From: Antedon mediterranea
Lineage: Eukaryota; Echinodermata; Crinoidea; Comatulida; Antedonidae
Reading direction: 5' to 3'
Assembly (NCBI RefSeq): GCF_964355755.1
Contig: NC_092679.1
Location: 1,426,001-1,490,000, forward strand
DNA length: 64,000 bases
Positions 7,201-56,400 of the stretch are shown here, piece after piece. A model generated the notes under the pieces. It saw nothing but the letters and a program-made list of their open reading frames with translations, was not told the DNA's origin and ran no database searches. A program made the translations under genes and the position numbers. Each line of letters starts with the position of its first letter. Within the stretch, counting starts at the first letter, position 1.

Positions 7201-9170
7201 CAATTGTGGTTCAGTTAGCCCAGCCATATGTCATAGGATCCATTAGGTAATGAATATTTATGAGTTGAAATCAACCAACATGCTTCTAAGCCACTCCTAA
7301 AACTCTGTCTACACTATCAAACTTTATGTGATAACAAAATGTGATGTGCCCATATATGGACATAATGATGTCATATCACTATCATATTTGGGCACATCAC
7401 CACCATATTTGGGCACATCACTGCCATATTTGGGCACATCACACTTTTTAATGGTCTTACAGAATGCTCCTTTGGGATTGTGATGACCGTACTTACAGTT
7501 ACCATATTGAAGTATCAACAGATAACCAAACATGGATACGGGTAGCTGACAAAACCAAAGAGAATTGCAGGTGACGACATTAACTATTCATTTTTAATAC
7601 ATACACCTGTATTTAAAAGATTAAGAATAATTTAGAATAGCATGCTTCTATACATAACATTCGATAGTGAAATTTTACAACAGAAGTAATTGACATACAG
7701 TAAAATGATATTGTGAGGCGCCTCTGATATGTTGTGAGGCGCCTCTGATATGTTGTGAGGCGCCTCTGATATGTTGCGAGGCGCCTCTGATATGTTGCGA
7801 GGCGCCTCTGATATATTGCGAGGCGCCTCTGATATATTGCGAGGCGCCTCTGATATATTGTGAGGCGCCTCTGTGTTTAATATTGAATTAAAAAAATTAT
7901 TTTAAAAAATGATGATATTTAATATTGTAGTACTAGCCTAACCAATTTATCTAATCTGCAAAAAAACATCTTTAAATTAATTTAGCCTGAAGAAAAAGAT
8001 GCAATAAATATTGTATAATTTATTTAATGGCTTGTCATAATGATAATCATTTTTTATTTTGTTTTTTTATTTAGGTCATGGCAGACTCTGACCTTTGCCC
8101 TTAGGGCTGTGGCTTTCATTAAGATAGTAGGCACACGTAACACAGCAAATGAAGTGAGTATAGTACCCATGGGGATCATACACTTTTTGTAAATGAATCC
8201 AGAATGCACATATAAACAAAAATATGGACCTTCACAATATACTATCACACATTTAAACATCATTATCGTCAAGTCAAGCTGTGCCTACATAATTCTAATA
8301 CTCCCAATAATTTTTTCAACTTCTTATTTAATAATTTATATTTTCAAAAAGTGACACAAAAGGATTTAAGCAGATATTACGTAAGCTTAAAACGCCCTCC
8401 AAATCAGTCCCAAACAGTTGACATTCGCAGATTGGATTTCCCTTGTTGCGTAGCCTAAAAATTAAATCCTAAAAATGAAACTAAAGGATGTTTAAGTAGA
8501 CAAAGGTAATAAATAGGGATGATTAACTTTGAATAGTTGCCAAGTATTATTATACATTAAATATATATATATACTCATTCATTATCTTTGCCTGATGTGT
8601 ATATATTCATTCATTATCTTTGCCTGATGTGTATATATTCATTCATTATCTTTGCCTGATGTGTATATATTCATTCATTATCTTTGCCTGATGTGTATAT
8701 ATTCATTCATTATCTTTGCCTGATGTGTATATATTCATTCATTCATACACATTTATTCAGTTATAACAATAGCTGGGGCCTGCACTAGAAGCAAACGCTT
8801 GTCTCATGAGGGCCTCTACAATACATATATATAATACATAGAACGAAATATAAAACAACAAACAATATAATATATAAATTATTTATGCAATAAAATATAA
8901 GTTATTTAATATTGAATAAAGAGAATACGGTCGCAAATTATTGACTAAAAAAAAAGTAGACCAACTTTAATTTTTAATTTCTAAATTGATTTGACATTGT
9001 GTAGTTGTCCAAATAATTGAATATAAAACATTATTGTTGTTTTTGTTGAGGTATTCCACTGTGTCCATGTTGAATGCCCGGCACAAAAAGAAGAAATTCA
9101 AAGCGATGGCGACAGCGCTTCATCTGGAAAACTTTCTCCAACTGTTGCAGGTGCAGAGGGTGGATTTTAA
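4253..9170 (+). CDS. BTBD9: BTBD9 homologue (BTB-BACK-discoidin domain protein), complete, ten exons
   Basis: Coding exons: 4253-4440, 4633-4999, 5222-5486, 5720-5948, 6259-6378, 6566-6675, 7057-7246, 7463-7570, 8075-8153 and 9051-9170 (stop TAA 9168-9170). They total 1,776 nt, or 591 residues, and every junction keeps phase. Domains in order: BTB about 36-133 (VFPAHRVILAARCEYF, then KYIYTGKMSL), BACK about 140-245, then two F5/8 type C (discoidin-like) domains about 285-410 and 435-555. These carry the paired motifs LLWDRDMRSYSYYIEVS and LLWDCDDRTYSYHIEVS, plus NGDTKHYDWDSGYTCHQLGS. Length and order match animal BTBD9, a putative Cullin-3 substrate adaptor linked in vertebrates to sleep and iron phenotypes. 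The ATG at 4253 is preferred because MSDTNSLR aligns with the family start, although the frame stays open back to the acceptor at 4195. The donor after 4440 is gtcagg, weaker than the others. Introns hold several repeats (entries below). Confidence 0.96.
5508..5620. mobile_element. Short inverted-repeat element in BTBD9 intron 3
   Basis: About 111 bp. The left arm, GGGAGCTTTCGATTTGCGAG, is mirrored by the right arm, whose complement reads GGGAGCTTTCAATTTGCGAA. The arms are 30 bp or longer with a few mismatches, and the interior contains further self-complementary gaccgac/gtcgttc blocks. It starts about 20 bp after the exon donor and is non-coding. This is a MITE-like element of a family otherwise not seen in the window. 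Confidence 0.6.
5959..6125. mobile_element. MITE family A, copy 2, in BTBD9 intron 4
   Basis: The left end is TTAAGCTCTGTCTACACTAT and the right end AGTTTGATAGTGTAGACAAA followed by GCTTTA, a near-perfect inverted repeat of about 25 bp. The interior has the family blocks: a cccatatatgga stretch, then repeated catatcactaccatattt. The left terminus is 11 bp inside the intron, immediately after the exon donor. Flanking TA or TTA may be a target-site duplication, but terminal overlap makes it ambiguous. Confidence 0.8.
6706..6935. repeat. Dispersed inverted-repeat family C, copy 1, in BTBD9 intron 6
   Basis: The segment is dominated by alternating ctgtatctcc, attctgtaat, gataca and tgtgac motifs that pair with each other (ATTCTGTAATACAG against CGAATTACAGAATT). 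A related segment occurs at 18950-19140 with the same motif order. No coding capacity. It is probably a decayed non-autonomous transposon. Confidence 0.45.
7300..7455. mobile_element. MITE family A, copy 3, right end lost, abutting BTBD9 exon 8
   Basis: The left end, AACTCTGTCTACACTATCAA, is intact. The interior has three tandem blocks of the catatttgggcacatcac type. The right inverted repeat is missing: the element fades at 7455, eight bases before the exon at 7463. The polypyrimidine tract and acceptor (ctttttaatggtcttacag) are at or inside the element's truncated edge. Confidence 0.75.
7711..7873. repeat. 21-bp tandem repeat, eight copies, palindromic core
   Basis: Unit ttgtgaggcgcctctgatat plus g, repeated about eight times in BTBD9 intron 8. 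Each unit holds the perfect 10-bp palindrome GAGGCGCCTC, never altered. The flanking bases vary in blocks (ttgtg, then ttgcg, then ttgtg; atg, then ata). Confidence 0.95.
8573..8750. repeat. 32-bp tandem repeat, about five copies
   Basis: BTBD9 intron 9 repeats a 32-bp unit made of tgtgtatatattcattcatt followed by atctttgcctga. The copies are practically identical, so the expansion is recent. Confidence 0.93.
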
Positions 9171-12998: not shown

Positions 12999-15900
12999 TC
13001 AAAGTGGAGTTTCTGGAAGGCATTTAAGAAGGAGGTCTTTGATCTCTTGAGATGCAAGTGGTGGTTCCTCTCTCCAACATCTTTCAACAATCTTCACCAT
13101 CTGAAAATATAATAAATATTTTAAATATAAAAAATAAATTTTGCAGCAACCAACACAATATAACATAAATGTCAATCAATCTGCATTTAATAATAAATAT
13201 AGCGTCGGTGTCCTCCACCCAAGTGGTGCTCATTGCACTAAGTGGTGCTCATTGCGAAATATAGTGATATTTTCAGATTAATTTGTAACATATGTATAAT
13301 TTCATGGAAATGAGAAATACAATAAAAGCATGAACTCGATTTAAGAAATTGTCATTAATAGTTGAATTTAAGAAAACAAATTAAAAAGATTTATTGAGAA
13401 ATTACTACTAATTTAATTTGAATTTCTGTAATTCAATCAAATTCAATATTTTAATCATTTGACCACAAGTTCTCCCATTGGGATAATAAATGAACTCTAT
13501 TGAACGGTCAATGACCAGGATCAGAATGTATTTTTATGAATTTGAAAATTAATTTAATGGTAAACTTGTTTTGAGTAAAAGGAAGACACAAATAAAACAA
13601 GATTTTACACAAATACATATTTTTTTAAATACTACTTTAGAATGTGTATCATGGTTTTATAAAGCTTTTAAAACAGCAAAAGCTCCATATTATTAGGGTA
13701 AACAATGTTAAACATAAATGTAATTAAAGAAAGTCACATGAATAATGGGATTAAAATAAATCGACAGACAATCGAATGTGGCAACTAAATTTAAAAGAGT
13801 TAGTCAGAGCAATGAAATATGTATTGAATCCAGGAAACTGTATTTGTATCATAGTAACAAAATTAATTGAATGCATATGGTATATAAAGTAGACCTGGTT
13901 TATCCTTTGAAAGATATACCATAGTACCAGTAGGTCGAGGGTTAACTAGAGAAAATAACTGGTAATGCGTTTTATATTGAAACCTAAAATGTACGTCAGA
14001 CACACAAACCTGTAAATGAAGGTAGCCCTTGTCTCGCCTCAGAATTTGCAACCAATTTGAGAAAGCTTTCGATTTCCTCTCGTCATCTCTGAGCACATCT
14101 ACCGTTACTTCAGGTAACCATGGAAACTGTCGCTGTAGTTCCCCCAAATAATACTGATGATGTTTATTAATGCCAGATGGCAAGAACACTTCGCAGTATT
14201 GTATGTCTGCTGTGTCGATGTTAGTGGTACACAGTTCCGGGATCTCTCCCATATAAACGTCCAAGTTTAATTTTTGCTGGATGGAAACCATCGGGGTGTA
14301 AATATTCTCGTTCCGAATTGTGTTTCTAAGCTGCGGACTAGGAGGCTGATTAAGTGAGTTGTTTAAAGAAATGCAGCAGCATTGTCCAGGTAAAGAATTG
14401 ATTAATGAGTCCGACATATCTAGTTCACATCCTGGTGTGGTTGGCCCATCTGGTAGCTGACATTTTGGACAAACTGATGCAGCACCATTTTTATGAATGT
14501 TTACGTTATCTGCACTACGCCATTTCTTATATAATTGATTGCTGTATTGGCTTCCTTCATATTGAACTTGTAACGGATTGTTCTTTACTTTTGTAAAACA
14601 TGGACTTTTAGCTCCAGTTTTACGAACATAAAATTGCGAGAGAGAACTTTTATGTTTTGGTTCGGGAGTAGTCGGTGATGACGGGACTTTTTCAGTTTCC
14701 TGCCAACTTACATCATCAATTGCACTAGTACTACACGCTTTACGCAGGTCCGAGTAACGCTTATCACTATCTGTTTCTGGAATCGTTTCTGGGATGTTAG
14801 CCCTGCTCTTTTGAACTCCATCTAGAATACTTGAACGATATTCACAATCCTGGTCTGCGTGGCTTTGTATCCACGTTTCAATCATTTGACTAAGTACCGA
14901 AAAGGATGGTAATTCGTTATCTCCAGAGCCTTTTGCGTAAATCGTTGTACGACTCCTGGGAACATTTCGAAAGTGAAAGGGTGTTGGGGAGTGTGAGTTC
15001 AGATGGCGTGACCAGCCCGGAACCTTATTATTTGTACCAAGTACAGAATTATTGTCTTTTTTATTATTCTTCTTTGTGTTAAAATTTGATAATGATTCCT
15101 GTTGGGATGAGATGCCGCTATCGGTGCTGCAGATGCTCTTTCTCTTTGATGAGCCATCAGGAAGGAGTTGTAGAAGATCGTTTGTTGAATCCAGACCAAA
15201 TAGATCATTATCTCCCGTTTCTGTTCCTGATGAATCAGAACTACTTCTTGACTCATTACTTTCCTTCTCAACAGTTTTTTTATTAACTTCTTTTGTAAGT
15301 GTCCTCGAGTTTTTACTTAATTCTTCTTCCAAGCTCTTTGTCGCACATGTTAGCTCACACTGTTTTTTCAAAGTATTCATTTGTTCGTTTTCTTCCTGAA
15401 ATTCTTTGAGTAAATTCACAAGACTTTCTCGATATTTTCTATCGTACAATACTCGATGATTCAGTACTTCGTCAGGTTTTCTCGTGTTTATACCTTCTAA
15501 TTTTTCACTTTCTTTTTCCATTTCCATAACTTGGTTGTGTGCTTCCTCCAGAAGCATGTCCAAATGTTTGGTAGTAAGATCGTTAAAGACTGGAGGTGGC
15601 ATGCTTTGAACAAAATGATGTCTGTGACCACCACCGACATACGCTGCCGTCTTTACTGGATGATCTTCTGCAACATATCGATTCAAACCAGAAAGCTCTA
15701 AAGACTCTTTGATGGACTTTATGTTTCTTATTTGCAATGGTGATGACGTTACCTCTGCATCTACACTTTTTGGAGAATATTCTTGAGGTGTTTGGTCGGG
15801 TTTATCAGTTTCAACATTCAATTTGTTTTCAGTTTCTTCATCACCTTTAAGAAATGCAAAATTATTTTTTCCAGAAGCACTGAGATGCTTTCGACAATTA

Positions 15901-18900
15901 TCCGTTGATGACCATAACAACATCTCACACAACATAATACCAAATGCACGGACATCTGCTACAAAGAGTTCCACATTTTCCGCCCACTCACTGTCATGAA
16001 AGACTTTTAAGGAGATCGAACCTGGAACATTCAGGTAATGATCTTCAATTGTTCTGTTTGCTTCCTCTTGCTTTTGTAATGTTCCTCCACGTTTTCTTCG
16101 TCTGATAGTTGAAACATCCTTTGCTTTTCCGAATTCTGATATTACCACTCTAAATTCTGAATTCTGAAATTGAATAAATATACAATTAGTGATTTGTTAC
16201 TACTAAATATGCAATCTAAAATTTTTTTTTCTTCAAAATTAATATACTGTAATAATAAAATGAATAAAAACATAAATGTTAAGTCATACATACTAATTAT
16301 CTTATATTTAATTATGCAATGTGAACAACGAACATATGGACATAATTAATCAAACTTCATCATCAAGTCATTAACAATTTCGATCCAATATTTTTAATTA
16401 ACTGTTGCATCTCTCCTTGGAAATGACTTTGGGATTTTAAAGAAATGTTGACTTTTTACAAACTTTGATGGATATTGTATTCCTTGTGGATATTTTATTA
16501 ATAAAACATTTTTTTAGATTCATCATCACATGACAACGTGCAAGTGTAAGATTAAAGAATGAACGTAATGGAAGTTAAGAATGAACTTAATGGAAGTTAA
16601 GAATGAACTTAATAAAAGTTAAGAATGAACTTAATGGAAGTTAAGAATGAACTTAATGGAAGTTAAGAATGAACTTAATAGAAGTTAAGAATAAACTTAA
16701 TGGAAGTTAAGAATGAACTTAATGGAAGTTAAGAATAAACTTAATAAAGTTAAGAATGAACTTAATAAAGTTAAGAATGAACTTAATAAAGTTAAGAATG
16801 AACTTAATGGAAGTTAAGAATGATTTTAATTCATTCATCTTTTTATTTCAGAATATCATGATGACATAATATATCCATAGCAAAAGAGAAAAAAAAATCT
16901 TAATCTAAGAGCTCATCATAGAACAAAAATAAAAATATATAATATAAAGTCAATGCAACAAGGCATTCCATTGTATGTGCATTCTTGACAAATAGCCAGG
17001 ATCAAAGAATTACTACTTGCATTCACACAATTTTTAAAACTAAAAACAGATTTTCTAATGAACTCATCAAAGACAAACATCATGCTTGGACTTAATTTCT
17101 AGGCTGCTTCAGCAGCAAACATAAGACATTGTTATAACATACTTTCAGTGATCTCAGAGTGCTTTTATTATATATACACCATTAGGTAATGGAAGTTAAG
17201 AATGAACTTAATGGAAGTTAAGAATAAACTTAATGGAAGTTAAGAATGAACTTAATGGAAGTTAAGAATAAACTTAATGGAAGTTAAGAATGAACTTAAT
17301 GGAAGTTAAGAATAAACTTAATGGAAGTTAAGAATGAACTTAATGGAAGTTAAGAATAAACTTAATGAAAGTTAAGAATGAACTTAATGGAAGTTAAGAA
17401 TAAACTTAATGGAAGTTTAGAATGAACTTAATGGAAGTTAGGAATGAACTTAATGCAAGTTAAGAATGAACTTATTGGAAGTTAAGAATGAACTTATTGG
17501 AAGTTAAGAATGAACTTATTATGGAAGTTAAGAATAAACTTAATGGAAGTTAAGAATGAACTTAATGGAAGTTAAGAATGAACTTAATGGAAGTTAAGAA
17601 TAAACTTAATGGAAGTTAAGAATGAACTTAATAGAAGTTAAGAATGAACTTAATGGAAGTTAGGAATGAACTTAATGGACGTTAAGAATGAACTTAATGG
17701 AAGTTAGGAATGAACTTAATGGACGTTAAGAATGAACAATGACATATCAAACAAACAATATTTCCAATGTAGAAAATTTATGTTAGTATATACCTAAATA
17801 TTAAGTAATAACTACTGACCTCAATACTTCCCCCAATGGAATTTAGTCGGGATTATAAAATAGGATGACTAAGAAGCGTTTAGGCTTTCCAAGGATTTTA
17901 TAACTAAAATCATGGAAAAGTGTTATCACTCTGGGCATCTATTCTGTTGTTAGTTTATTTATTATAATCAAAACTTTTCTTTTTTAATGTTTTGTAGGTA
18001 AAATGTTTAATTTGGATAACAATTCAAAACAACTGAATATACAGTACCAGAAAAAGACAAATGTACAACAGGCGAAAACATTTCTAATAATTAAATTCAT
18101 TTTAATTGGAGTATTAATTTACTTGCGTAGGAAATTAAAAAAAACATTATTCCAGGAAAAAACATGTACAATTAAAATAAATATAATATAAAATGAAACT
18201 ATTCATAAACTTTTATTGGACATTCAACATAGGAAACTTAAATGTCCAATGAAAAGTATTTGTGCCGACGACGGTGCCAGCATTAGGGCCGTCACTACGT
18301 ACCAAGACCTGGGCGTGATGACTCATTGAGAAATACAAGAGTGTAATCCAATTATACTATGGACAAGTCCAGAAGACCAAGGACATTATAGACCAAGATC
18401 AAATACGTTAGTCATTTCTGAATGTTCACAACAGCTGGGATCGACTGAATGTTGACAAAGACACTATATATATATATATATAGCATTGTCATTTTTTTCA
18501 GTAATTTGCCTTAGGATTTATATATATATATATATAAATCCAAAGGCAAATTACTGAAAAAAATGACATAATTTGCCTTTGGATTTATATATATATATAT
18601 ATAAATCCAAAGGCAAATTACAGAAAAAAATGACAATGCTGTGGGTATCAGTGGCTGGATCTCAATGGAGATACAAAAAAAAAAGCGAAAAGCTAAATCA
18701 AAACGATAAAGTAAACAGCCAGAAAAGTTAGCAGAGCTTTCGGGGCAACACTAGCCCTTCATCAGTTCATCATTATTCTTTATTTCAAATAAAAACATAT
18801 GAATGTAACAAACATCCTTAAGGTCACAGCTTGGGGGACCAAGATGCAAGGCAAGACAAGACAACTAATACAAAACACTTAAAATAAGAAGCTAAAAATT

Positions 18901-21900: not shown

Positions 21901-24900
21901 TTCTTTTATTTCTCGTTTGTTTTGTGTAAGCCTATTCAATGACGATTGCTTTAACTAGATAAACCAACACAAATATAATTTCATATTGAGGTTGAATCTA
22001 TTTTCATACCCCCACCTACAAAGTACAAGTTGGGAGAAGGGGAAGGGGGTGGGGTCCCAATTGTCATCACAAGAGACGATTGTCTCTAAGATTGTGGGAA
22101 ACTAAGGCAAGCGGCCAAAATGTAAATGATTCAAAGTGAATCATAGAATAAATTTTAGGAACACAAAGCACTTTGTCAGTTAATAAAAGCTAGTTGTTTA
22201 AGACGACGTGTGCGAACAGAGAGTAAACTGATTTAATATATAGTGACTAAGAAAAAATTAAGAGAAATCAGGTCAATATCTGATATGTACTGTTTTATGC
22301 TCAAAGAAGAACCAAAGCTCTGTCTACACAATCAAACTGGTTGATACACCCAAATATGGTAGTGATATGCCCAAATATGGTAGTGATATGCCCAAATATG
22401 GTAGTGATATGACATCATGTCCATATATGGGTACATTACATTTTTTTTGTCACATAATTTTTGATAGTGTAGACAACTGTAACTAAATGATAATGTTTTT
22501 TTATTTTGTGTTAAATATAAAATATAAATAAAGCAAAACATGTTGCCTAATGTTATTTTTAAACCCTTACAAGCTATTGGGTGCTTGTAATATGCGTTAA
22601 ATTTACTAATTTCTGAACTAAATAATCATATGATATTAATTTCCTGTTGATTGCTAGTCAGGGTGCTGTAAACATCGACACTAGGATAAACACAAACTAA
22701 AACCACATCATTATGAATAAGAATGGTATTTACATAGTGTATAGGAGGTTGTTGGTTCGAATCCAAAGGTTATCAAGTTTTAGTTTAACTTTATTTTGAA
22801 AATCAAATGCTAAAATTGTGAATTGAATAATTTAATAAATGGAAATGGAATAGTGTACATAAAATCATTTTAAACAAAGATTTATTATTTCCGTACGATA
22901 ATTCATTGCACCAATCAACAGTCTTAATGTTTTATATTTACCCATAATCCTTCATGAAACATGTTGATGGATATAACCGGTCAAAGAGGATGAACATTTA
23001 ACAACTTAATGTATAAACATTGTTTAGTATAACATTTCAGACGCCATTACTTGGCTAATTTTTGCGGTGTTTTTGTAGACTAGACAAAATGTTGAATGTT
23101 TTCAGGGCTAATGAGTCAACGTAGGCAGGCCTACATCAGAAGCAGGACAAATAGTTGAACTTACTTCAATACATTGCCCTCTGGTATTATGTACGGTTAA
23201 AATAATGATTCACACCAATGAAGAATACAGATCTACTCTAGAATGTCCTCTACAATTAAACTAAACAAATATAAAATTAAACTTGATGCTTGACTAGCAT
23301 ATTTATTGTATCCGAGCAAAATTGAAAATATTGACATGAAATCTTTATAATCCACTCAAGGGCGGCTCAATGTTTTTTTAACAGGGAACGCTAACATATA
23401 ATATAGTCTGTAAAAAATAGTATAAAAAAGTAGTTCATACAGTAATGTCCTTGGAGAACGCAGTACAGTAGCTATAACGCTACTACATCTTTATCATAGA
23501 AGCAGATTATTATTAAATTTGTTACTACAGTACAACTAAAATAAATGTAGTTTCTGTCTAAATTAAACAGAAAATAATCACAACTAAACAACATGTTTTT
23601 ATGAAACGTTGTCTTATAAATAGCCTGAAGAAATTAAATATAAAAACAAAAGTATCAGTACTGTTTTGCCCGGAAGCACTTCCATATTATGGATACATTT
23701 CACCAAAGAAAGCCTCACAAGGTTTTTGAAAAAATATTTCTGGTCTTTAGAAATATTAACAGGGTCATATTTATGAGATTAATAGATTTTTAATAGACAA
23801 CCTTCCTAAATGCATTATAAGATTTACTTACCAAGTTCAGGGAGTGATTTGTCTTGTAGCGATATATAGAAATATATTAAATATGTCATGAAGAGGATTA
23901 GCGATAATTTGTTATGTTGTCAACTATTACTCATTTAAATTCATGTGACCATTTCGTTATCTACACCCTGTTTATAAATTCAATACAGTACAATCCTATT
24001 TACTATTCATCTTTCATTTATTCTGGTTTATTTTGAAAAGACATTGCAGTAAAAAATTGAATTGCGTCCAATAACATCAATAGAAAAATACAACCATAAA
24101 AATAGGAAAAAAACGATAGAATCCAGCAAAATTGCACACAAACATCAAATATTAAAAATATAATTCATAGAAATAAGTCTCCTATTAAGGAGATACCTTA
24201 GAAATTCCACAAAGTTTTAGCAATGAATATTTGATTATCATTATATTTAATAAAAAAAGTTTAGTAAAATTACCTTAGAGTTTCCTCCACCAATCAGAAT
24301 ATTGGTTGCCTGTATTCTATTGTGGATGATGTTTCTTGAGTGCAAGAAGCAGAGACCTTCTGAAATGTGACTGGTTATTTTGTGAATGGTTGTGTCTGTC
24401 AGTTTACCCTGCTGGTGCTCTAGTAGAAAGTTCTGCAGGTTCCCATACTCAAAAAATGGACTACATAAATATCTGAGAAAGAAATCAAGATTATTTAATT
24501 AATATTCATTCATTTAAACATGAAAAATAAAAATTAATAAATCAGACTTTGAATAAGTCATTTTGTAGTTTTAATCAAGTTAATCACTTCCGTAGAAAAA
24601 AATCCCCAAAATTAATGTTTTCACTTATAAAATAAACAGTTAAATTAAACCAAAAATCTATTGGCTGGACGCCATATTTCCTACTATGAAACATCACTCA
24701 AATTCAGTTTATCATGGAACAAAAAAAATGAGCTGTTTTAACTGCTAAACGGTTTAAAGGGCAATATTCTTGTACCCACATTTCACTTTTGTTGTACACA
24801 TAGTGGTGTGTTTATAAAGTTCATCATTATGATTAAATTTGATTTCTGTAGGTTTTGCAATTCATTTGATTAATTTTGATTACAATTAATTTTATAATTA

Positions 24901-33887: not shown

Positions 33888-33893
33888 TTTATT
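33888..33893 (-). terminator. AATAAA polyadenylation signal overlapping the GPCR stop codon
   Basis: The minus strand reads CTCCTAATAAAG. The last two bases of the TAA stop are the first two of AATAAA. If used, the 3' untranslated region would be only some 15-30 nt. A further U-rich stretch follows. Confidence 0.55.
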
Positions 33894-34875
33894 AGGAGTT
33901 TGAATCACATCTTTTATATATCATTTTACACATTAAAAAAAATTGATGTATTATACCTTTTTGTTTACAAGAATGTAGAAAAAGACCAACTCGTCCTTGC
34001 TCCATTCCGAGCGTCGCAAGATATAGCAACGGATTAACAATCGATTCAAACGGTAACACAAATCCAAATACCCACTGGATTAATCCCGTGCTTATCGACG
34101 AACCAGCATACGCGTTAAATCCAATAACCAATACGGGAATCCAACAAACAGTGGTTGCTAATATGATGAACGAAAAACGCTTGGCAAATACTATTTCACG
34201 CCTTATAACGCGTGCTTCCATCGGTATGGCCATTACCAATGTGTTTTTCTGTCGTTGTAATTGACAAATTATTAACAATATTTCCAGTGAGATTGTGAGA
34301 ACGACAAACGCAGAGTAACAGAACAAGACTAACGTATAAATCCACAAAGATTCTTGCGGTGGTCTGAGCACTAAACACAAAGTGTTCCAATATGTTTGCA
34401 CGGTGGGTTTAAAATATTGCACAGGAAGGTATGGAACGGAAGATAAGCCAAACATTGCTACCCATTCCAATAAAATTAAGATTTTATAAAATGATAGATA
34501 GTTTTTTGTTCTACGGAACTTTTTTGGGAAGAGTTTGCCAAGGAGAAGGTTCGTAGCCATTGTGATCATAATCGTCAGAGTAATGTTAAAAGCCAACGTT
34601 CCTATGAATCCTGTTACATTGCAAAGAGGCTGAAACTGTTGAAGTCGTTCCGGTTGAGTGTCCAGCGAGAAGATGGCGTCCATTGCAGCAATCAGAATCA
34701 GATACACGGACACTAAAAAGTTTGCGATACACAGGTTGTGTAAAAAGAAGCTTGTGATTCTGCATTCTCGTTTTTGCAACAAACGAACGACAAGACAAAA
34801 AACGTTGAGGAAAATTGACACAACAATGCACGTCCAAATAAATCCAATTAAAATATTTGAAGCAAAGAGCCCCAT
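33892..34875 (-). CDS. Class A (rhodopsin-like) GPCR, LGR-like, single coding exon
   Basis: 327 residues with seven hydrophobic segments at about 7-33, 42-69, 85-113, 130-151, 177-205, 230-257 and 262-288. Class A marks: Cys85 and Cys167 (TM3 to loop 2 disulfide), Trp138 in TM4, CWIP at 244-247 in TM6, NPLLY at 281-285 in TM7. Oddities: the TM2 Asp is Asn52 (LCIANFLV), and no DRY/ERW follows TM3 (it reads TNLLLGKLF). The NLCIANFLVSVYLILIAAMD and KRFSFIILATTVCWIP stretches recall LGR/relaxin-receptor transmembrane regions, but there is no leucine-rich ectodomain here. The start is well supported: an in-frame TAG lies at 34900-34902, nine codons upstream. An acceptor (tttatttttcag) before 34945 implies a 5' untranslated exon further right. 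Ligand and G-protein coupling are unknown. Confidence 0.9.
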   Translation of the reverse strand: MGLFASNILIGFIWTCIVVSIFLNVFCLVVRLLQKRECRITSFFLHNLCIANFLVSVYLILIAAMDAIFSLDTQPERLQQFQPLCNVTGFIGTLAFNITLTIMITMATNLLLGKLFPKKFRRTKNYLSFYKILILLEWVAMFGLSSVPYLPVQYFKPTVQTYWNTLCLVLRPPQESLWIYTLVLFCYSAFVVLTISLEILLIICQLQRQKNTLVMAIPMEARVIRREIVFAKRFSFIILATTVCWIPVLVIGFNAYAGSSISTGLIQWVFGFVLPFESIVNPLLYLATLGMEQGRVGLFLHSCKQKGIIHQFFLMCKMIYKRCDSNS

Positions 34876-43950: not shown

Positions 43951-44335
43951 CCCCTATTCATAGGACAGACCTATTTAGGGACACCTCTATTATTAAGGGA
44001 CACATTGTTGGGTCCCCAAGGCGTCACTGCAGGTGTCCCCAACCCCTATTCATGGGACAGTAAGGGACACATTGTTGGGTCCCCAAGGCGTCACTGCAGG
44101 TGTCCCCAACCCCTATTCATGGTACAGACCTATTTAGGGACACCTCTATTATTAAGGGACACATTTTTGGGTCCCCAAGGCGTCACTGCAGGTGTCCCCA
44201 ACCCCTATTCATGGAACAGACCTATTTAGGGACACCTCTATTATTAAGGGACACATTGTTGGGTCCCCAAGGCGTCACTGCAGGTGTCCCCAACCCCTAT
44301 TCATGGTACACCTATATTAAGGGGACACTTTACTG
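43951..44335. repeat. 67/92-bp tandem repeat, four copies
   Basis: The landmark gcgtcactgcaggtgtcccc occurs at 44021, 44088, 44180 and 44272, giving spacings of 67, 92 and 92. The short first period lacks about 25 bp (the gacctatttagggacacctc part). A degenerate half copy follows at 44370-44470. The overlapping ORFs at 44005-44339 are a by-product. Confidence 0.93.
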
Positions 44336-44875: not shown

Positions 44876-46058
44876 TTGCGTATAGTGATCACATGTGTGT
44901 GCTATCACTGCCTGAGACAGTAACAAGCTCATGATATCAATGCCGCAAGTATAATATGCTTGTCTTTTATCATGTAATCATGATATGTTATGTCATAAAC
45001 TTTTAATTTTAAACTTATTTATATTTTCTTTTTTTATTATAAAACAAAAGAAAATAATTCAATTTAAGGATATTCAATCAATTTATAATTAAATTATAAT
45101 TTCAAAATAATACAATTTAACCAATAGATTGCAGATACTAATTCAGTTTTTGTATATACATCATATTATTTTCAAAATAAAGCAACATTCTGCAACATTT
45201 TTAAGAGCCAAATATTTTCTATAAATATGGTAAAATATAATTCTACAATTATGTAATTTTGTTGTATATGCAAATCAGTCATAATGAATATTCATCAAAA
45301 AACGAAAAACATTATAATGGTTTTTAGTCAATTAACTGGAATCTGATGGTAGAATTCATTTAGCTTTATGCATATTATAAGTCTATATATATATTACATT
45401 TAGAAGCGGTCAGCCTATTCATACATACAGCATTCATTACCATAGAGATACAATATCCAATCAAAAGTGCAAACGTACAACTTTAAAGATGACAGCCGTT
45501 TAAACGCACCAATAGGGCGCCCTCGATTGATTGGGTATAACCATTTGAAAAAAAAATAATAATCCAGTTATTGCGCAACATATTTATCAATTATATTAAC
45601 AATCAGATACAATTGAATCCGTTATATTTTATCATTTTTAGACATTAAAAAGGTAATGCCCAATAAAGCGCCCTCAAATCACATTGTACGTGAAGCTATA
45701 ATTACGTATGTATTTGCACAGTGGTGATTGACGACAGCACACAGGGAATTGGACGTACACACCGTGGAATACATGACAATAAACGAGTTTTACAAAGGTT
45801 ACATATAGTCGCCGTTGTTTCTTCTGCTGCGAGTTGTAAGGGTGTCGTGGCTACCGACTCGTCCTCTTTGACTTAGTTGACGTGGTGGTGGCGTACCCTA
45901 CGAGAAAAAATATTGGGAAACGATTGCATCAGGGAAATGCTTTATGGAGTGTACTAACTAAACCCGGCATAAAGAATACAATATACAGCATACTATATCT
46001 TGCAAACTATTCTATAGTTTATAAGACACATAATGTTGCCCTTTTATTTGTTTATTTA
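44876..46058. other. Non-coding flank of the 54-bp array
   Basis: Mostly AT-rich. The part 45470-45900 has more CpG and a cgccctc motif twice (near 45519 and 45667). An open frame enters the tandem array from 45882, but its first 58 codons show no signal peptide or known motif. I see no exon with convincing splice sites. Confidence 0.4.
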
Positions 46059-49000
46059 TTTTCCCAACCAACAGTGAACTCGAGGTTCACCAGTTACACA
46101 GGAGGGAACACATTCTCCCAACCAACAGTGAACTTGAGGTTCACCAGTTACACAGGAGGGAACACACTCTCCCAACCAACAGTGAACTCGAGGTTCACCA
46201 GTTACACAGGAGGGAACACATTCTCCCAACCAACAGTGAACTCGAGGTTCACCAGTTACACAGGAGGGAACACATTCTCCCAACCAACAGTGAACTCGAG
46301 GTTCACCAGTTACACAGGAGGGAACACACTCTCCCAACCAACAGTGAACTCGAGGTTCACCAGTTACACAGGAGGGAACACACTCTCCCAACCAACAGTG
46401 AACTCGAGGTTCACCAGTTACACAGGAGGGAACACATTCTCCCAACCAACAGTGAACTCGAGGTTCACCAGTTACACAGGAGGGAACACATTCTCCCAAC
46501 CAACAGTGAACTCGAGGTTCACCAGTTACACAGGAGGGAACACATTCTCCCAACCAACAGTGAACTCGAGGTTCACCAGTTACACAGGAGGGAACACATT
46601 CTCCCAACCAACAGTGAACTCGAGGTTCACCAGTTACACAGGAGGGAACACATTCTCCCAACCAACAGTGAACTCGAGGTTCACCAGTTACACAGGAGGG
46701 AACACATTCTCCCAACCAACAGTGAACTCGAGGTTCACCAGTTACACAGGAGGGAACACATTCTCCCAACCAACAGTGAACTCGAGGTTCACCAGTTACA
46801 CAGGAGGGAACACATTCTCCCAACCAACAGTGAACTCGAGGTTCACCAGTTACACAGGAGGGAACACATTCTCCCAACCAACAGTGAACTCGAGGTTCAC
46901 CAGTTACACAGGAGGGAACACATTCTCCCAACCAACAGTGAACTTGAGGTTCAACAGTTACACAGGAGGGAACACATTCTCCCAACCAACAGTGAACTCG
47001 AGGTTCACCAGTTACACAGGAGGGAACACATTCTCCCAACCAACAGTGAACTTGAGGTTCACCAGTTACACAGGAGGGAACACATTCTCCCAACCAACAG
47101 TGAACTCGAGGTTCACCAGTTACACAGGAGGGAACACATTCTCCCAACCAACAGTGAACTCGAGGTTCACCAGTTACACAGGAGGGAACACACTCTCCCA
47201 ACCAACAGTGAACTCGAGGTTCACCAGTTACACAGGAGGGAACACACTCTCCCAACCAACAGTGAACTCGAGGTTCACCAGTTACACAGGAGGGAACACA
47301 TTCTCCCAACCAACAGTGAACTCGAGGTTCACCAGTTACACAGGAGGGAACACATTCTCCCAACCAACAGTGAACTCGAGGTTCAACAGTTACACAGGAG
47401 GGAACACACTCTCCCAACCAACAGTGAACTCGAGGTTCACCAGTTACACAGGAGGGAACACATTCTCCCAACCAACAGTGAACTCGAGGTTCACCAGTTA
47501 CACAGGAGGGAACACATTCTCCCAACCAACAGTGAACTCGAGGTTCACCAGTTACACAGGAGGGAACACACTCTCCCAACCAACAGTGAACTCGAGGTTC
47601 ACCAGTTACACAGGAGGGAACACACTCTCCCAACCAACAGTGAACTCGAGGTTCACCAGTTACACAGGAGGGAACACATTCTCCCAACCAACAGTGAACT
47701 TGAGGTTCACCAGTTACACAGGAGGGAACACATTCTCCCAACCAACAGTGAACTCGAGGTTCACCAGTTACACAGGAGGGAACACATTCTCCCAACCAAC
47801 AGTGAACTTGAGGTTCACCAGTTACACAGGAGGGAACACATTCTCCCAACCAACAGTGAACTCGAGGTTCACCAGTTACACAGGAGGGAACACACTCTCC
47901 CAACCAACAGTGAACTCGAGGTTCACCAGTTACACAGGAGGGAACACATTCTCCCAACCAACAGTGAACTCGAGGTTCACCAGTTACACAGGAGGGAACA
48001 CATTCTCCCAACCAACAGTGAACTCGAGGTTCACCAGTTACACAGGAGGGAACACATTCTCCCAACCAACAGTGAACTCGAGGTTCACCAGTTACACAGG
48101 AGGGAACACATTCTCCCAACCAACAGTGAACTCGAGGTTCACCAGTTACACAGGAGGGAACACATTCTCCCAACCAACAGTGAACTCGAGGTTCACCAGT
48201 TACACAGGAGGGAACACATTCTCCCAACCAACAGTGAACTCGAGGTTCACCAGTTACACAGGAGGGAACACATTCTCCCAACCAACAGTGAACTTGAGGT
48301 TCAACAGTTACACAGGAGGGAACACATTCTCCCAACCAACAGTGAACTTGAGGTTCACCAGTTACACAGGAGGGAACACATTCTCCCAACCAACAGTGAA
48401 CTCGAGGTTCACCAGTTACACAGGAGGGAACACATTCTCCCAACCAACAGTGAACTTGAGGTTCACCAGTTACACAGGAGGGAACACACTCTCCCAACCA
48501 ACAGTGAACTCGAGGTTCACCAGTTACACAGGAGGGAACACATTCTCCCAACCAACAGTGAACTCGAGGTTCACCAGTTACACAGGAGGGAACACATTCT
48601 CCCAACCAACAGTGAACTTGAGGTTCAACAGTTACACAGGAGGGAACACATTCTCCCAACCAACAGTGAACTCGAGGTTCACCAGTTACACAGGAGGGAA
48701 CACATTCTCCCAACCAACAGTGAACTCGAGGTTCACCAGTTACACAGGAGGGAACACATTCTCCCAACCAACAGTGAACTCGAGGTTCACCAGTTACACA
48801 GGAGGGAACACATTCTCCCAACCAACAGTGAACTTGAGGTTCACCAGTTACACAGGAGGGAACACATTCTCCCAACCAACAGTGAACTCGAGGTTCACCA
48901 GTTACACAGGAGGGAACACATTCTCCCAACCAACAGTGAACTCGAGGTTCACCAGTTACACAGGAGGGAACACATTCTCCCAACCAACAGTGAACTCGAG

Positions 49001-52000
49001 GTTCACCAGTTACACAGGAGGGAACACATTCTCCCAACCAACAGTGAACTCGAGGTTCACCAGTTACACAGGAGGGAACACATTCTCCCAACCAACAGTG
49101 AACTCGAGGTTCACCAGTTACACAGGAGGGAACACATTCTCCCAACCAACAGTGAACTCGAGGTTCACCAGTTACACAGGAGGGAACACATTCTCCCAAC
49201 CAACAGTGAACTCGAGGTTCACCAGTTACACAGGAGGGAACACATTTTCCCAACCAACAGTGAACTTGAGGTTCACCAGTTACACAGGAGGGAACACATT
49301 CTCCCAACCAACAGTGAACTCGAGGTTCACCAGTTACACAGGAGGGAACACACTCTCCCAACCAACAGTGAACTCGAGGTTCACCAGTTACACAGGAGGG
49401 AACACACTCTCCCAACCAACAGTGAACTTGAGGTTCACCAGTTACACAGGAGGGAACACATTCTCCCAACCAACAGTGAACTCGAGGTTCACCAGTTACA
49501 CAGGAGGGAACACATTCTCCCAACCAACAGTGAACTTGAGGTTCACCAGTTACACAGGAGGGAACACATTCTCCCAACCAACAGTGAACTCGAGGTTCAC
49601 CAGTTACACAGGAGGGAACACATTCTCCCAACCAACAGTGAACTCGAGGTTCACCAGTTACACAGGAGGGAACACATTCTCCCAACCAACAGTGAACTTG
49701 AGGTTCACCAGTTACACAGGAGGGAACACACTCTCCCAACCAACAGTGAACTCGAGGTTCACCAGTTACACAGGAGGGAACACATTCTCCCAACCAACAG
49801 TGAACTTGAGGTTCACCAGTTACACAGGAGGGAACACATTCTCCCAACCAACAGTGAACTCGAGGTTCAACAGTTACACAGGAGGGAACACATTCTCCCA
49901 ACCAACAGTGAACTTGAGGTTCACCAGTTACACAGGAGGGAACACATTCTCCCAACCAACAGTGAACTCGAGGTTCACCAGTTACACAGGAGGGAACACA
50001 TTCTCCCAACCAACAGTGAACTCGAGGTTCACCAGTTACACAGGAGGGAACACATTCTCCCAACCAACAGTGAACTCGAGGTTCACCAGTTACACAGGAG
50101 GGAACACATTCTCCCAACCAACAGTGAACTCGAGGTTCACCAGTTACACAGGAGGGAACACATTCTCCCAACCAACAGTGAACTCGAGGTTCACCAGTTA
50201 CACAGGAGGGAACACATTCTCCCAACCAACAGTGAACTCGAGGTTCACCAGTTACACAGGAGGGAACACATTCTCCCAACCAACAGTGAACTTGAGGTTC
50301 ACCAGTTACACAGGAGGGAACACATTCTCCCAACCAACAGTGAACTCGAGGTTCACCAGTTACACAGGAGGGAACACATTCTCCCAACCAACAGTGAACT
50401 CGAGGTTCACCAGTTACACAGGAGGGAACACATTCTCCCAACCAACAGTGAACTCGAGGTTCACCAGTTACACAGGAGGGAACACATTCTCCCAACCAAC
50501 AGTGAACTCGAGGTTCACCAGTTACACAGGAGGGAACACATTCTCCCAACCAACAGTGAACTCGAGGTTCACCAGTTACACAGGAGGGAACACATTCTCC
50601 CAACCAACAGTGAACTCGAGGTTCACCAGTTACACAGGAGGGAACACATTCTCCCAACCAACAGTGAACTCGAGGTTCACCAGTTACACAGGAGGGAACA
50701 CACTCTCCCAACCAACAGTGAACTCGAGGTTCACCAGTTACACAGGAGGGAACACACTCTCCCAACCAACAGTGAACTCGAGGTTCACCAGTTACACAGG
50801 AGGGAACACATTCTCCCAACCAACAGTGAACTCGAGGTTCACCAGTTACACAGGAGGGAACACATTCTCCCAACCAACAGTGAACTTGAGGTTCAACAGT
50901 TACACAGGAGGGAACACATTCTCCCAACCAACAGTGAACTCGAGGTTCACCAGTTACACAGGAGGGAACACATTCTCCCAACCAACAGTGAACTCGAGGT
51001 TCACCAGTTACACAGGAGGGAACACATTCTCCCAACCAACAGTGAACTCGAGGTTCAACAGTTACACAGGAGGGAACACATTCTCCCAACCAACAGTGAA
51101 CTCGAGGTTCACCAGTTACACAGGAGGGAACACATTCTCCCAACCAACAGTGAACTCGAGGTTCACCAGTTACACAGGAGGGAACACATTCTCCCAACCA
51201 ACAGTGAACTCGAGGTTCACCAGTTACACAGGAGGGAACACATTCTCCCAACCAACAGTGAACTCGAGGTTCACCAGTTACACAGGAGGGAACACATTCT
51301 CCCAACCAACAGTGAACTCGAGGTTCACCAGTTACACAGGAGGGAACACATTCTCCCAACCAACAGTGAACTCGAGGTTCACCAGTTACACAGGAGGGAA
51401 CACATTCTCCCAACCAACAGTGAACTCGAGGTTCACCAGTTACACAGGAGGGAACACATTCTCCCAACCAACAGTGAACTCGAGGTTCACCAGTTACACA
51501 GGAGGGAACACATTCTCCCAACCAACAGTGAACTCGAGGTTCAACAGTTACACAGGAGGGAACACATTCTCCCAACCAACAGTGAACTCGAGGTTCACCA
51601 GTTACACAGGAGGGAACACATTCTCCCAACCAACAGTGAACTCGAGGTTCACCAGTTACACAGGAGGGAACACATTCTCCCAACCAACAGTGAACTTGAG
51701 GTTCAACAGTTACACAGGAGGGAACACATTCTCCCAACCAACAGTGAACTCGAGGTTCACCAGTTACACAGGAGGGAACACATTCTCCCAACCAACAGTG
51801 AACTCGAGGTTCACCAGTTACACAGGAGAGAACACATTCTCCCAACCAACAGTGAACTCGAGGTTCACCAGTTACACAGGAGGGAACACATTCTCCCAAC
51901 CAACAGTGAACTCGAGGTTCACCAGTTACACAGGAGAGAACACATTCTCCCAACCAACAGTGAACTCGAGGTTCACCAGTTACACAGGAGGGAACACATT

Positions 52001-52700
52001 CTCCCAACCAACAGTGAACTCGAGGTTCACCAGTTACACAGGAGGGAACACATTCTCCCAACCAACAGTGAACTCGAGGTTCACCAGTTACACAGGAGGG
52101 AACACATTCTCCCAACCAACAGTGAACTCGAGATTCACCAGTTACACAGGAGGGAACACATTCTCCCAACCAACAGTGAACTCGAGGTTCACCAGTTACA
52201 CAGGAGGGAACACATTCTCCCAACCAACAGTGAACTCGAGGTTCACCAGTTACACAGGAGGGAACACATTCTCCCAACCAACAGTGAACTTGAGGTTCAC
52301 CAGTTACACAGGAGGGAACACATTCTCCCAACCAACAGTGAACTTGAGGTTCACCAGTTACACAGGAGGGAACACATTCTCCCAACCAACAGTGAACTCG
52401 AGGTTCACCAGTTACACAGGAGGGAACACATTCTCCCAACCAACAGTGAACTCGAGGTTCACCAGTTACACAGGAGGGAACACATTCTCCCAACCAACAG
52501 TGAACTCGAGGTTCACCAGTTACACAGGAGGGAACACATTCTCCCAACCAACAGTGAACTCGAGGTTCACCAGTTACACAGGAGGGAACACATTCTCCCA
52601 ACCAACAGTGAACTCGAGGTTCACCAGTTACACAGGAGGGAACACATTCTCCCAACCAACAGTGAACTCGAGGTTCACCAGTTACACAGGAGGGAACACA
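46059..52700. repeat. Giant 54-bp minisatellite, exactly 123 copies
   Basis: 6,642 bp equal 123 x 54 with no insertion or deletion. The unit runs from ttctcccaaccaacagtgaa through ctcgaggttcaccagttaca to caggagggaacaca and is 50% GC in a genome region of roughly one third GC. Most copies contain CTCGAG; a minority read CTTGAG. Other recurrent variants are ttctccc/ctctccc, caccagtt/caacagtt, and a rare gaggga/gagaga. Since 54 is a multiple of three and the unit has no stop in one frame of each strand, it translates as an 18-residue repeat on the plus strand (FSQPTVNSRFTSYTGGNT) and a Cys-rich one on the minus strand. Common variants are missense in the plus frame (F/L, S/L, T/N, G/E). The array is therefore more likely a satellite than a gene. 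It has no recognised promoter, splice context or signal peptide. Confidence 0.97.
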
Positions 52701-52964
52701 TTCTTTTTAAACATAATTTTCACTACTGCACGCATCCATATACATGGGGTATTTGGAATGTTTTAAACTAATTTACATTAAAAAATTAGCTGTCATCTTG
52801 GATCCAATATGGCGGCCAACATGGAATCCCCACCTTTTACCACATAAGCTGCGTTGGTAAGTAATTGTTTTTTTTATCTATGCAGTTGAAATCAACCAAC
52901 AAAAGTTTGTTACCAAATGAATATCAGAAAACCATTCATTATAATACAGTATGGTAGAATACGA
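52701..52964. other. Spacer between the 54-bp and 17-bp arrays
   Basis: 264 bp of unique AT-rich sequence. It includes a ccaatatggcggccaacatg stretch that resembles promoter-type or dispersed sequence (an imperfect inverted repeat). No ORF. Confidence 0.5.
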
Positions 52965-53462
52965 TATTGTTTAAAGTCAGTTATTGTTTAAAGTCAGTTA
53001 TTGTTTAAAGTCAGTTATTGTTTAAAGTCTGCTATTGTTTAAAGTCAGTTATTGTTTAAAGTCAGTTATTGTTTAAAGTCAGTTATTGTTTAAAGTCAGT
53101 TATTGTTTAAAGTCTGCTATTGTTTAAAGTCAGTTATTGTTTAAAATCGGTTATTGTTTAAAATCGGTTATTGTTTAAAGTCAGTTATTGTTTAAAGTCA
53201 GTTATTGTTTAAAGTCGGTTATTGTTTAAAATCGGTTATTGTTTAAAGTCAGTTATTGTTTAAAGTCAGTTATTGTTTAAAGTCAGTTATTGTTTAAAGT
53301 CAGTTATTGTTTAAAGTCTGCTATTGTTTAAAGTCAGTTATTGTTTAAAGTCAGTTATTGTTTAAAGTCAGTTATTGTTTAAAATCGGTTATTGTTTAAA
53401 ATCAGTTATTGTTTAAAGTCAGTTATTTTTTAAAGTCAGTTATTGTTTAAAATCGGTTATTT
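52965..53462. repeat. 17-bp tandem repeat, about 29 copies
   Basis: The unit ttattgtttaaagtcag is repeated in register, with variants in the last bases (tcag, tcgg, tctgc) and aaaatcgg. The variant order repeats in blocks, for example several tcag units then one tctgc unit, suggesting block duplication. Confidence 0.95.
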
Positions 53463-56400
53463 TTACTTACATCATCATTCAATTTCATATTTAAGACAGA
53501 CATCGAACTAGCTCTTTTCATTCTGCAAAGTTTCAAGATAAAAATCAATAAAATTAATATGAACATGAAAAAAATAATCAAAACATAAAGAATTCAATAT
53601 TTTGTTACGGTACTTAAAAATCAGAATGTGAGGGACGTCCACAACATGGCAGGTAACGACTTCAAGACACAATAGCTTACATGCATGCAATAACATTTTT
53701 CGCATATGAAATTTTCTTTATAGTCAAATGTTTAGAAAAATTATTAAATTGTATTGTTTATATCAAAAAAATTTTTTTATACCAGGGGCAGATCAAGTGG
53801 CCAATTCACTAATCACACTTAAGTGAGATACTTCTCTTAAAAAGTATTTCACTATTCACTCAGTAAATTCCCTTAAATTGTATTCACTTAGATAGGAGAT
53901 TAAAAAAAATTTTAAATGGGAGAGCACTAACATATATTAATATCAAAAATAAATATTAAAAAGTAGATTCATTTTATCTGTCAAAAAAGGGAAGTGTTCC
54001 CCTAGCACTCTCCCTAGATATAAATGCTCGCCCAACGTGACAAAAGAATGGGTTTGATCGTCGGTCAACTAATTGATTAATGGACTTTGAGGTTAATTTC
54101 TTTCTGTAACTTCATATCTACACATAATAAGTCAATACATATTTTACATACTACATTCATTAAGCATACATATACATGTACATTTTAAGAAAGCAATCTT
54201 ATTACACACAAGAAAAAACACCCACATGCAAAAATGGGTAAAAACAAACATTCACCAAAACAGTCTAGCGGTGCAAAAAAAAAAGCGGTGCAAAAACAGG
54301 CGGCGTAACGTGCAGGGTTTTATCATGCATTGCGTAACGTGAGCCATGAGAACAGTGTACAATCATGTTTTATCGATGAGCAGTTTAAAAAATAAAACAT
54401 GTAGTTTTGAAGTCATTGTACTAAATAATACCTTCGTCTAGTAGAGTCAAAATAAGGGGAAAAAAAAACAACATGAGAATTAGTTAGTATCTGAAGATCT
54501 GAAACTATGAGAAAAACCAGCAATCATGGGGCCCTAGAAATATTAACATTTGATATTTCTAAAATAACCTATCTATACAAAGTAGTAATCTAATCTAATT
54601 TCATGTACTTTACACATCTTTAATGATGATTCCAATCAGAATCAACCTAAATTTAATATATTTTAAAAATTCTATTTACTTGACGATAAGTACAGCGCTT
54701 ATAGTAGGGAAGGAAATAAAATAAGTATGATAACATAACATGCTGTTAGTAGTTCAATATGATCTGCATGCTGTGGAATTAAGAATGAACCCTTATAGAC
54801 TCATTTGTACAATGTCTAACCTAAAGTCTAGATTATATATCTAAGCAGTAATTTAATACATAATAACATAATTTATGATGTAAACTTATTACATAGTCAT
54901 ACAAACTTCTCAGTTAACTACAATATTAAATTTAACAATTAACACATTTGATACCATTTTTTGTTGTTGTATACAAATGTGTTATTTTTCTATAAAAATA
55001 TATCTATCTGAAAGTGTAATAAACAAAGGTTGTATGAATCTCAAATAATTTAAAGTTTCGTAGTTTAAAAGTATACAATAGAAATATATTTACTTAAAAT
55101 CCATGCATAACACCAACAGTTACGGCCTTATAACAGATTATTAGTAATAATACATTATTTGTAGTTTACTACAACATTTACAAAGTTTGGTTAAACACCG
55201 ATTGTTCTATTGATACAATATTATTGTCTAAACGAATATCAGAGAGCATAAAAAAAGGAAAAAATCATTCTCGTGTTAGACAGATAAACTAAATAAACTA
55301 ACAAAAAAAAAACTTGTCTAATTTCGGCTTTGATAATACTTTCAAAATTACCGAAGAAAATTAAGAATTTAAGGACAAACTTGAAAATAATTTGTTGTAG
55401 AATTTACAGACTAGAGAGCTTGTTTACCTCAAGGAACCGAGATGGTTGACTCGGCTTCAATAAGTCTGCAACTAAAATATATCATGTTTAATTTTAATAA
55501 TAAAACTACAGAAAATATTGTTGTCACTCTTCGTGCAGATATCGGTGTTACACAAACACTATAATGAATTTGCTTTACATAGTTTTCATTTTCGAAAAAA
55601 AAAAAACGGATCAAGAATATGACATGTTGTTAGGCCTAATTCTAAAGAATCAATTTACTGGTTTTCCAAATAAGTCACCAAGAGATGTCTCTTCTGAATT
55701 GGGGTTGAAATCACTTAAAAGCAGTTTTTATAACTATCGCAGCATGATGTTGCTTTATATCATTATTTATTTCTGATATTACACTATTAAGTTTAAATGA
55801 AATTCAACTGCCTTGAATGATATCACAAACTAATTTTCAAAAAACCATCTTATTTCAATACAGAGAAAATTAAAAATGGTCCTATGACAACAGTACTAAA
55901 AAATAAATAGGTACATTACAAGTTCCTAAAGAAACGGTGTAAGGAAACTGGTATTCAAAATCTTGACTAATCTTCAGCTATGCCATTTATCATGTGAACT
56001 GTATTTCTAAGAAATTCGCAACTTTGACAGAATCTCTGCGACCGAGCACAATTATCCATACGCCCTGCTGACACTTTAAGCATGCCCAACACGCGATGAA
56101 CTTTATGTAATTTAACACTATAATGCCCTAATAGTACATGATAGAGACTGTAACGAAGTACACTGTTCTCAAAGCTGTGTGCAATAGTCTTATATCACTG
56201 GTAGTAGTACCATAGATATACCAGTGATGGACTAGAGTGCATCATCTTAATTAGTGCAATGTTGTATTTGGGAGGAGAGGAAGAAATTATAAATAACCTG
56301 ATTAATGAAAATCTAATACATAAACAAAACATAGATTGATATTAAAACTACTGTACATGGTAAAACATGGTGGATAAACAACGATAAGCAAAGAAGTCGT

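Follow-up and report, generated by a model that had tools for sequence, protein, structure and literature searches.

The 64,000-nucleotide stretch of the Antedon mediterranea genome analysed here (hereafter the window; C10:1426001-1490000) carries a tandem array of a 54-bp unit that can be read without a stop codon for more than two thousand codons on either strand. Such a locus raises the question of whether the array encodes a repetitive protein or is non-coding tandem DNA, and, in the latter case, from what sequence it arose. To address this question, the array and its open frames were examined in the window and compared with the genome of the same species (354 Mb, 18 contigs).

Extent and homogeneity of the array

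Positions below are those of the window, and the array itself is listed as follows.

46058-52704, no strand assigned: tandem array, 54 bp x 123.1, with units resembling the 3' terminus of a LINE that lies on the minus strand

TRF reports this array with a period of 54, 123.1 copies, 98% matches and 0% indels, and the 123-copy tandem arrangement is no chance event. The consensus unit makes up 80 of the 123 whole units, and the remaining 43 carry one or two substitutions each: C>T at column 24 alone in 14 units, T>C at column 2 alone in another 14, and other single or double changes in 15. Across the 123 whole units only six of the 54 columns vary (2, 4, 24, 28, 33 and 48), and the mean pairwise difference between units is 1.3% per site. 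The five 1-kb windows lying wholly within the array (47001-52000) have GC contents of 0.49-0.50, as against 0.255-0.415 in the 1-kb windows of the stretch that do not touch it. The initial annotation, which described an exact array of 123 indel-free 54-bp copies at 50% GC within AT-rich DNA, thus placed the array correctly to within a few bases and was right about copy number, indels and base composition. The word "exact" is an overstatement, since 43 of the 123 units depart from the consensus; the array is better described as homogeneous and in register. Its indel-free phase had been considered notable as well, a view that finds no support here: with so few independent mutations to be seen (1.3% diversity, six variable columns), the absence of indels would be unsurprising.

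The arrangement of variants along the array gives limited information on how it grew. The column-2 variant is common to adjacent units in five pairs at lag 1, compared with 1.7 in shuffles (p 0.01, one of 36 tests), which is what local duplication would produce. Long repeated multi-unit blocks or a higher-order structure were not found (the observed value is attained in 24 of 100 shuffles), and the mode of expansion is therefore not directly visible. The same pattern bears on the possibility that the array is an assembly artefact with an inflated or collapsed copy number. Near-identical 54-bp repeats are indeed hard to assemble; against this, 6.6 kb is within the reach of long reads, and the variant units are spread through the array with no long blocks recurring, so that we regard such an artefact as very unlikely.

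Several other tandem repeats lie in the window. Near the 54-bp array is a second array of 17 bp x 29.5 (52965-53465, TATTGTTTAAAGTCAGT). Two 22-bp arrays at 16555-16830 and 17187-17737, about 360 bp apart, have a common unit in rotated register (AAGAATGAACTTAATGGAAGTT), and nested 67-bp and 92-bp tandem repeats at 43994-44310 have TAAGGGACACATTGTTGGGTCCCC in common. Short 21-bp arrays at 6032-6081, 7375-7442 and 22342-22411 seem, by eye, to form one family, with the last reversed relative to the first two (CCATATTTGGGC and GCCCAAATATGG); the unit of a fourth 21-bp array, at 7711-7873, is a different one. The 17-bp array (29 units), whose period is not a multiple of three, is in register, with 19 substitutions and at most two per unit. 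When read at a fixed step, 21-bp (7 units) and 32-bp (5 units) arrays are likewise in register, and both of the more divergent 22-bp arrays lose register although TRF prints 0% indels for them.

Open frames and the question of coding

Three of the six reading frames are open through the array.

45840-52766, plus strand: first stop-free frame, 2308 codons from stop to stop, with a FSQPTVNSRFTSYTGGNT repeat
46034-52771, plus strand: second stop-free frame, 2245 codons, with a ILPTNSELEVHQLHRREH repeat; no ATG, GTG or TTG
46056-52706, minus strand: stop-free frame, 2216 codons, with a VPSCVTGEPRVHCWLGEC repeat; no ATG

The two long antiparallel frames described in the initial annotation are both present, and its count falls one short: the second plus frame was missing from the list of open reading frames because it has no ATG, GTG or TTG. 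The frames are long because a near-identical 54-bp unit without stops in three frames is repeated. Openness on both strands is also common in repeats of this kind. When the bases of the unit were shuffled, 76.9% of 20,000 shuffles gave a sequence that, repeated in tandem, would have an open frame on each strand; the same holds for 45.9% of 20,000 random 54-mers drawn from the stretch outside the array. Openness on both strands is near chance and is hardly meaningful.

A coding explanation would hold that the array is one giant exon for a repetitive protein, with an 18-residue FSQPTVNSRFTSYTGGNT repeat, kept in frame by selection and homogenisation. A frame of 2308 codons, broken by neither a stop nor a frame shift, is in keeping with such a protein, as are database matches of the repeated peptide, both to PDB (v31Bagel8, E 3.5e-17; first plus frame only) and, above the cut-off, to Pfam (DUF7416, 2.4e-9). 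These matches were set aside as repeat-on-repeat scoring on the strength of a reversed-repeat control and a short piece. The reversed repeat also beats a Pfam cut-off (LRR_adjacent, 7.5e-7) and reaches 9.4e-5 in PDB; no single stretch passes for DUF7416, and a 24-aa piece matches nothing. Likewise, the second plus frame beats a Pfam cut-off (DddA-like, 2.1e-6) without having a start codon. The v31Bagel8 alignment places the 18-residue period with gaps on a period of about 40 residues, which resembles repeat-on-repeat scoring. The real repeat does outscore the reversed one in PDB (3.5e-17 vs 9.4e-5), a gap that we attribute, on the basis of the v31Bagel8 alignment only, to composition and to summing over periods. 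In the minus frame, a sub-threshold Pfam match to Toxin_23 (20.3 bits against a cut-off of 22.2), with no single stretch passing, was set aside on the same grounds.

Neither a start codon nor constraint on the frame, the two marks of a repetitive protein, was found, ATG having been sought in the array and in the open frame before it. No ATG occurs within the array in any of the three open frames, and the sole in-frame ATG of the first plus frame lies at 52758, beyond the array. Variable columns are nonsynonymous in four of six cases in the first plus frame and in five of six in the minus frame. For comparison, among the 162 possible changes to the unit, 118 (73%) would be nonsynonymous in the plus frame and 113 in the minus frame, with 5 and 10, respectively, creating a stop. 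The nonsynonymous share is about what would be seen without selection and gives no hint of constraint on the frames, although six sites make this a weak test. A protein origin also sits poorly with the likeness of the unit to a piece of a LINE 3' UTR, described below, and we consider it extremely improbable. The three open frames are probably by-products, and the first plus frame is not judged to be a gene.

Elsewhere in the window, a 761-aa open frame with a GTG start (13863-16148, minus strand) is possibly a long exon; searches of Pfam (E up to 0.001) and of PDB (E up to 0.01) gave no match for it. A 327-aa frame at 33892-34875 (minus strand) contains a rhodopsin-type 7TM receptor domain (E 2.1e-9). 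A reading of the array as an RNA gene was rejected, there being no Rfam match at the gathering threshold and no tRNA in the 64-kb window.

Single copies of the unit elsewhere in the genome

A 162-bp query from the array gave at least 94 matches in its own genome, 55 in the array and 39 elsewhere among the matches listed. Those outside the array (at least 39) are on contigs C1-C7 and C10, and each is a single copy of about 49-55 bp with 88-91% identity. Searched with a 37-mer of the dispersed form, the genome gives 80 matches at up to two mismatches, 14 of them exact, on C1-C11, in either orientation (42 forward, 38 reverse).

Flank anatomy was read at 16 of the 39 listed dispersed loci. On one side, TTTATT occurs within 30 bases before the unit at 15 of the 15 loci for which that flank is available; the sequence of the sixteenth (L023) ends too near the unit to be counted. 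On the opposite side, the likeness between loci ends at variable distances. For example, it stops at the unit in L020 and L024 and about 25 bases later in L012, and it lasts for hundreds of bases in other loci, such as L011 and L019. A 3' tail and a variable 5' truncation are thus both found among the 16 loci examined, and this combination is the anatomy of 5'-truncated LINE insertions as seen from the 3' end.

Aligned with the commonest dispersed form over 51 columns, the array unit shows three substitutions and a 2-bp insertion. The array-specific changes include CTCGAGG for CTCATGG and CAGTTACACAGG for CACTTACAGG. Two patterns searched genome-wide for a progenitor copy carrying the array-specific changes found none outside the array, so that the progenitor is seen only at the array locus. 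The junction between units is likewise restricted: a gapped exact pattern for it occurs 120 times in the genome and 120 times in the 64-kb window, and a fixed pattern with up to three mismatches 122 times in each. The tandem state is therefore confined to one locus at the stringency tested. Satellite DNA in the strict sense occupies several loci or large blocks; with its junction found at a single locus at up to three mismatches, this array is minisatellite-like rather than a strict satellite family.

The source element

Of the two loci that were extended, L026 (contig C1, minus strand) has a 1104-aa open frame on the LINE strand (L026:153-3464) with the unit homology downstream at the 3' end; in the other, L025, the frames are shorter and interrupted. 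Pfam domains in the L026 frame are RVT_1 (1.2e-33), Exo_endo_phos_2 (8.6e-9) and Exo_endo_phos (4.3e-7). With endonuclease and reverse transcriptase predicted in one frame, the source element would be an endonuclease-bearing (APE-type) non-LTR retrotransposon. In L026 the final sense codon ends at base 153, and the homology to the array unit lies past the stop at 74-121, which places the array unit in the short 3' UTR of the LINE.

The same frame begins with a hydrophobic signal-like N-terminus followed by CGDIEQNPGP, which would fit the 2A ribosome-skipping motif D(V/I)ExNPGP. That motif is reported for non-LTR retrotransposons and sea-urchin signal sequences (PMC4981915).

In LINEs of the stringent type, a 3' stem-loop is recognised by the LINE protein, according to PMC4176376. 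Folding of the array unit with its tail and of the A-variant is moderate (z about -2.0; 7 of 200 shuffles fold as well), and that of the G-variant, taken from L026, is weaker (z -1.1; 26 of 200 shuffles). A conserved 3' stem-loop is not claimed, since the G-variant, which folds less well, is the commoner one (56 of the 80 copies matched by the 37-mer).

The edges of the array

At its left edge the array is joined to LINE tail sequence.

46043-46057, minus strand: LINE 3' tail remnant (TTTATTTGTTTATTT on the plus strand), at the left array edge
46058-46111, minus strand: first unit, joined to the tail, with ATTTTCCC at a place where most units have C in column 4

Here the array runs on into TTTATTTGTTTATTTATT, which matches the LINE tail and 3' end together. 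Against the L026 copy, 46043-46075 aligns across both tail and 3' end (88.9% over 36 columns, E 1.3e-7); the shorter segment 46051-46075 also aligns with L019 (E 2.4e-4). Column 4 is C in 121 of the 123 units and T in the first unit and one other; at the corresponding site the dispersed copies have a run of T only, one base shorter than the ATTTTCCC of the first unit. Beyond the right edge nothing can be recognised as LINE sequence, and the insertion was therefore probably truncated at or near the unit. A search for a target-site duplication, comparing 45960-46050 with 52700-52790 for common words of at least 11 bases and allowing one mismatch, found none. The left flank (45400-46050, 651 bp) matches only itself at the sensitivity of the genome search used.

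To the right, a segment around ATCCAATATGGCGGCCAACATGG (52749-52844) has eight other partial matches in the genome at 76-87% identity and is a dispersed repeat.

Origin of the array

The array consists of near-identical units arranged head to tail, and these units resemble a segment of a dispersed transposable element, two of the features that characterise a satellite-like array derived from such an element. We conclude that it is very probably a single-locus, non-coding satellite-like (minisatellite-type) array expanded from the last ~52 bp of a 5'-truncated LINE. Between a homogenised protein and a recently amplified satellite with a unit length divisible by three by chance, the initial annotation had favoured the satellite; the coding tests agree with this preference, and an origin from a LINE 3' end can now be added to it. 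Two potential scenarios for the order of events can be considered.

1. Expansion after insertion. A 5'-truncated endonuclease-bearing LINE, reduced to about its last 52 bp and the tail, would have inserted on the minus strand. This remnant was then most likely duplicated once head to tail, probably by way of a very short identity between its ends, and replication slippage or unequal exchange would have expanded it to about 123 copies and also kept them homogeneous. The units have their differences from the dispersed copies in common and only 1.3% diversity among themselves, which suggests that the insert diverged before it expanded. The resulting array would presumably have no function.

2. 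Multiplication during insertion. Alternatively, repeated slipping or re-priming of the LINE reverse transcriptase on the element's 3' end may have multiplied a 3' segment, possibly one recognised by this enzyme, in the course of target-primed reverse transcription or directly after it. In agreement with this scenario, the array starts at the LINE 3' tail and holds the terminal segment only. However, the tested patterns reveal no second tandem junction in the genome despite 80 close copies of the 3' end, which makes multiplication during insertion less likely, and differences from the dispersed copies that are common to the units, alongside an internal diversity of just 1.3%, also argue against it. 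We therefore hold this scenario to be highly improbable; if it were true, the array would be a by-product of the retrotransposition enzyme and not of later recombination.

Relation to known satellites and significance

PMC12628747 gives the untranslated regions of LINEs as one source of satellite DNA. A table in PMC9659126 traces the chicken HinfI satellite to CR1, namely to its 3' UTR with part of ORF2, and the same source derives the common cetacean satellite from the 3' end of LINE-1. As in the HinfI satellite, a LINE 3' UTR has very probably given rise to a tandem repeat in Antedon; unlike it, the Antedon array holds only ~52 bp of the terminus and occupies 6.6 kb at one locus. The common cetacean satellite is similar in that 3'-terminal LINE sequence has become tandem, and differs from the Antedon array with its 54-bp unit and single locus. 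Compared with LINE-UTR satellites in general, the array shows no difference in kind and is a new instance. The conserved fish satellite of PMC8210747 has no bearing on it.

The locus appears to be young, and it illustrates cleanly how a kilobase-scale array can arise at a single site from a few dozen bases at the 3' end of a LINE, with the tail kept at one edge. It also serves as a warning: where the unit length is a multiple of three, long antiparallel open frames are to be expected in many homogeneous arrays.
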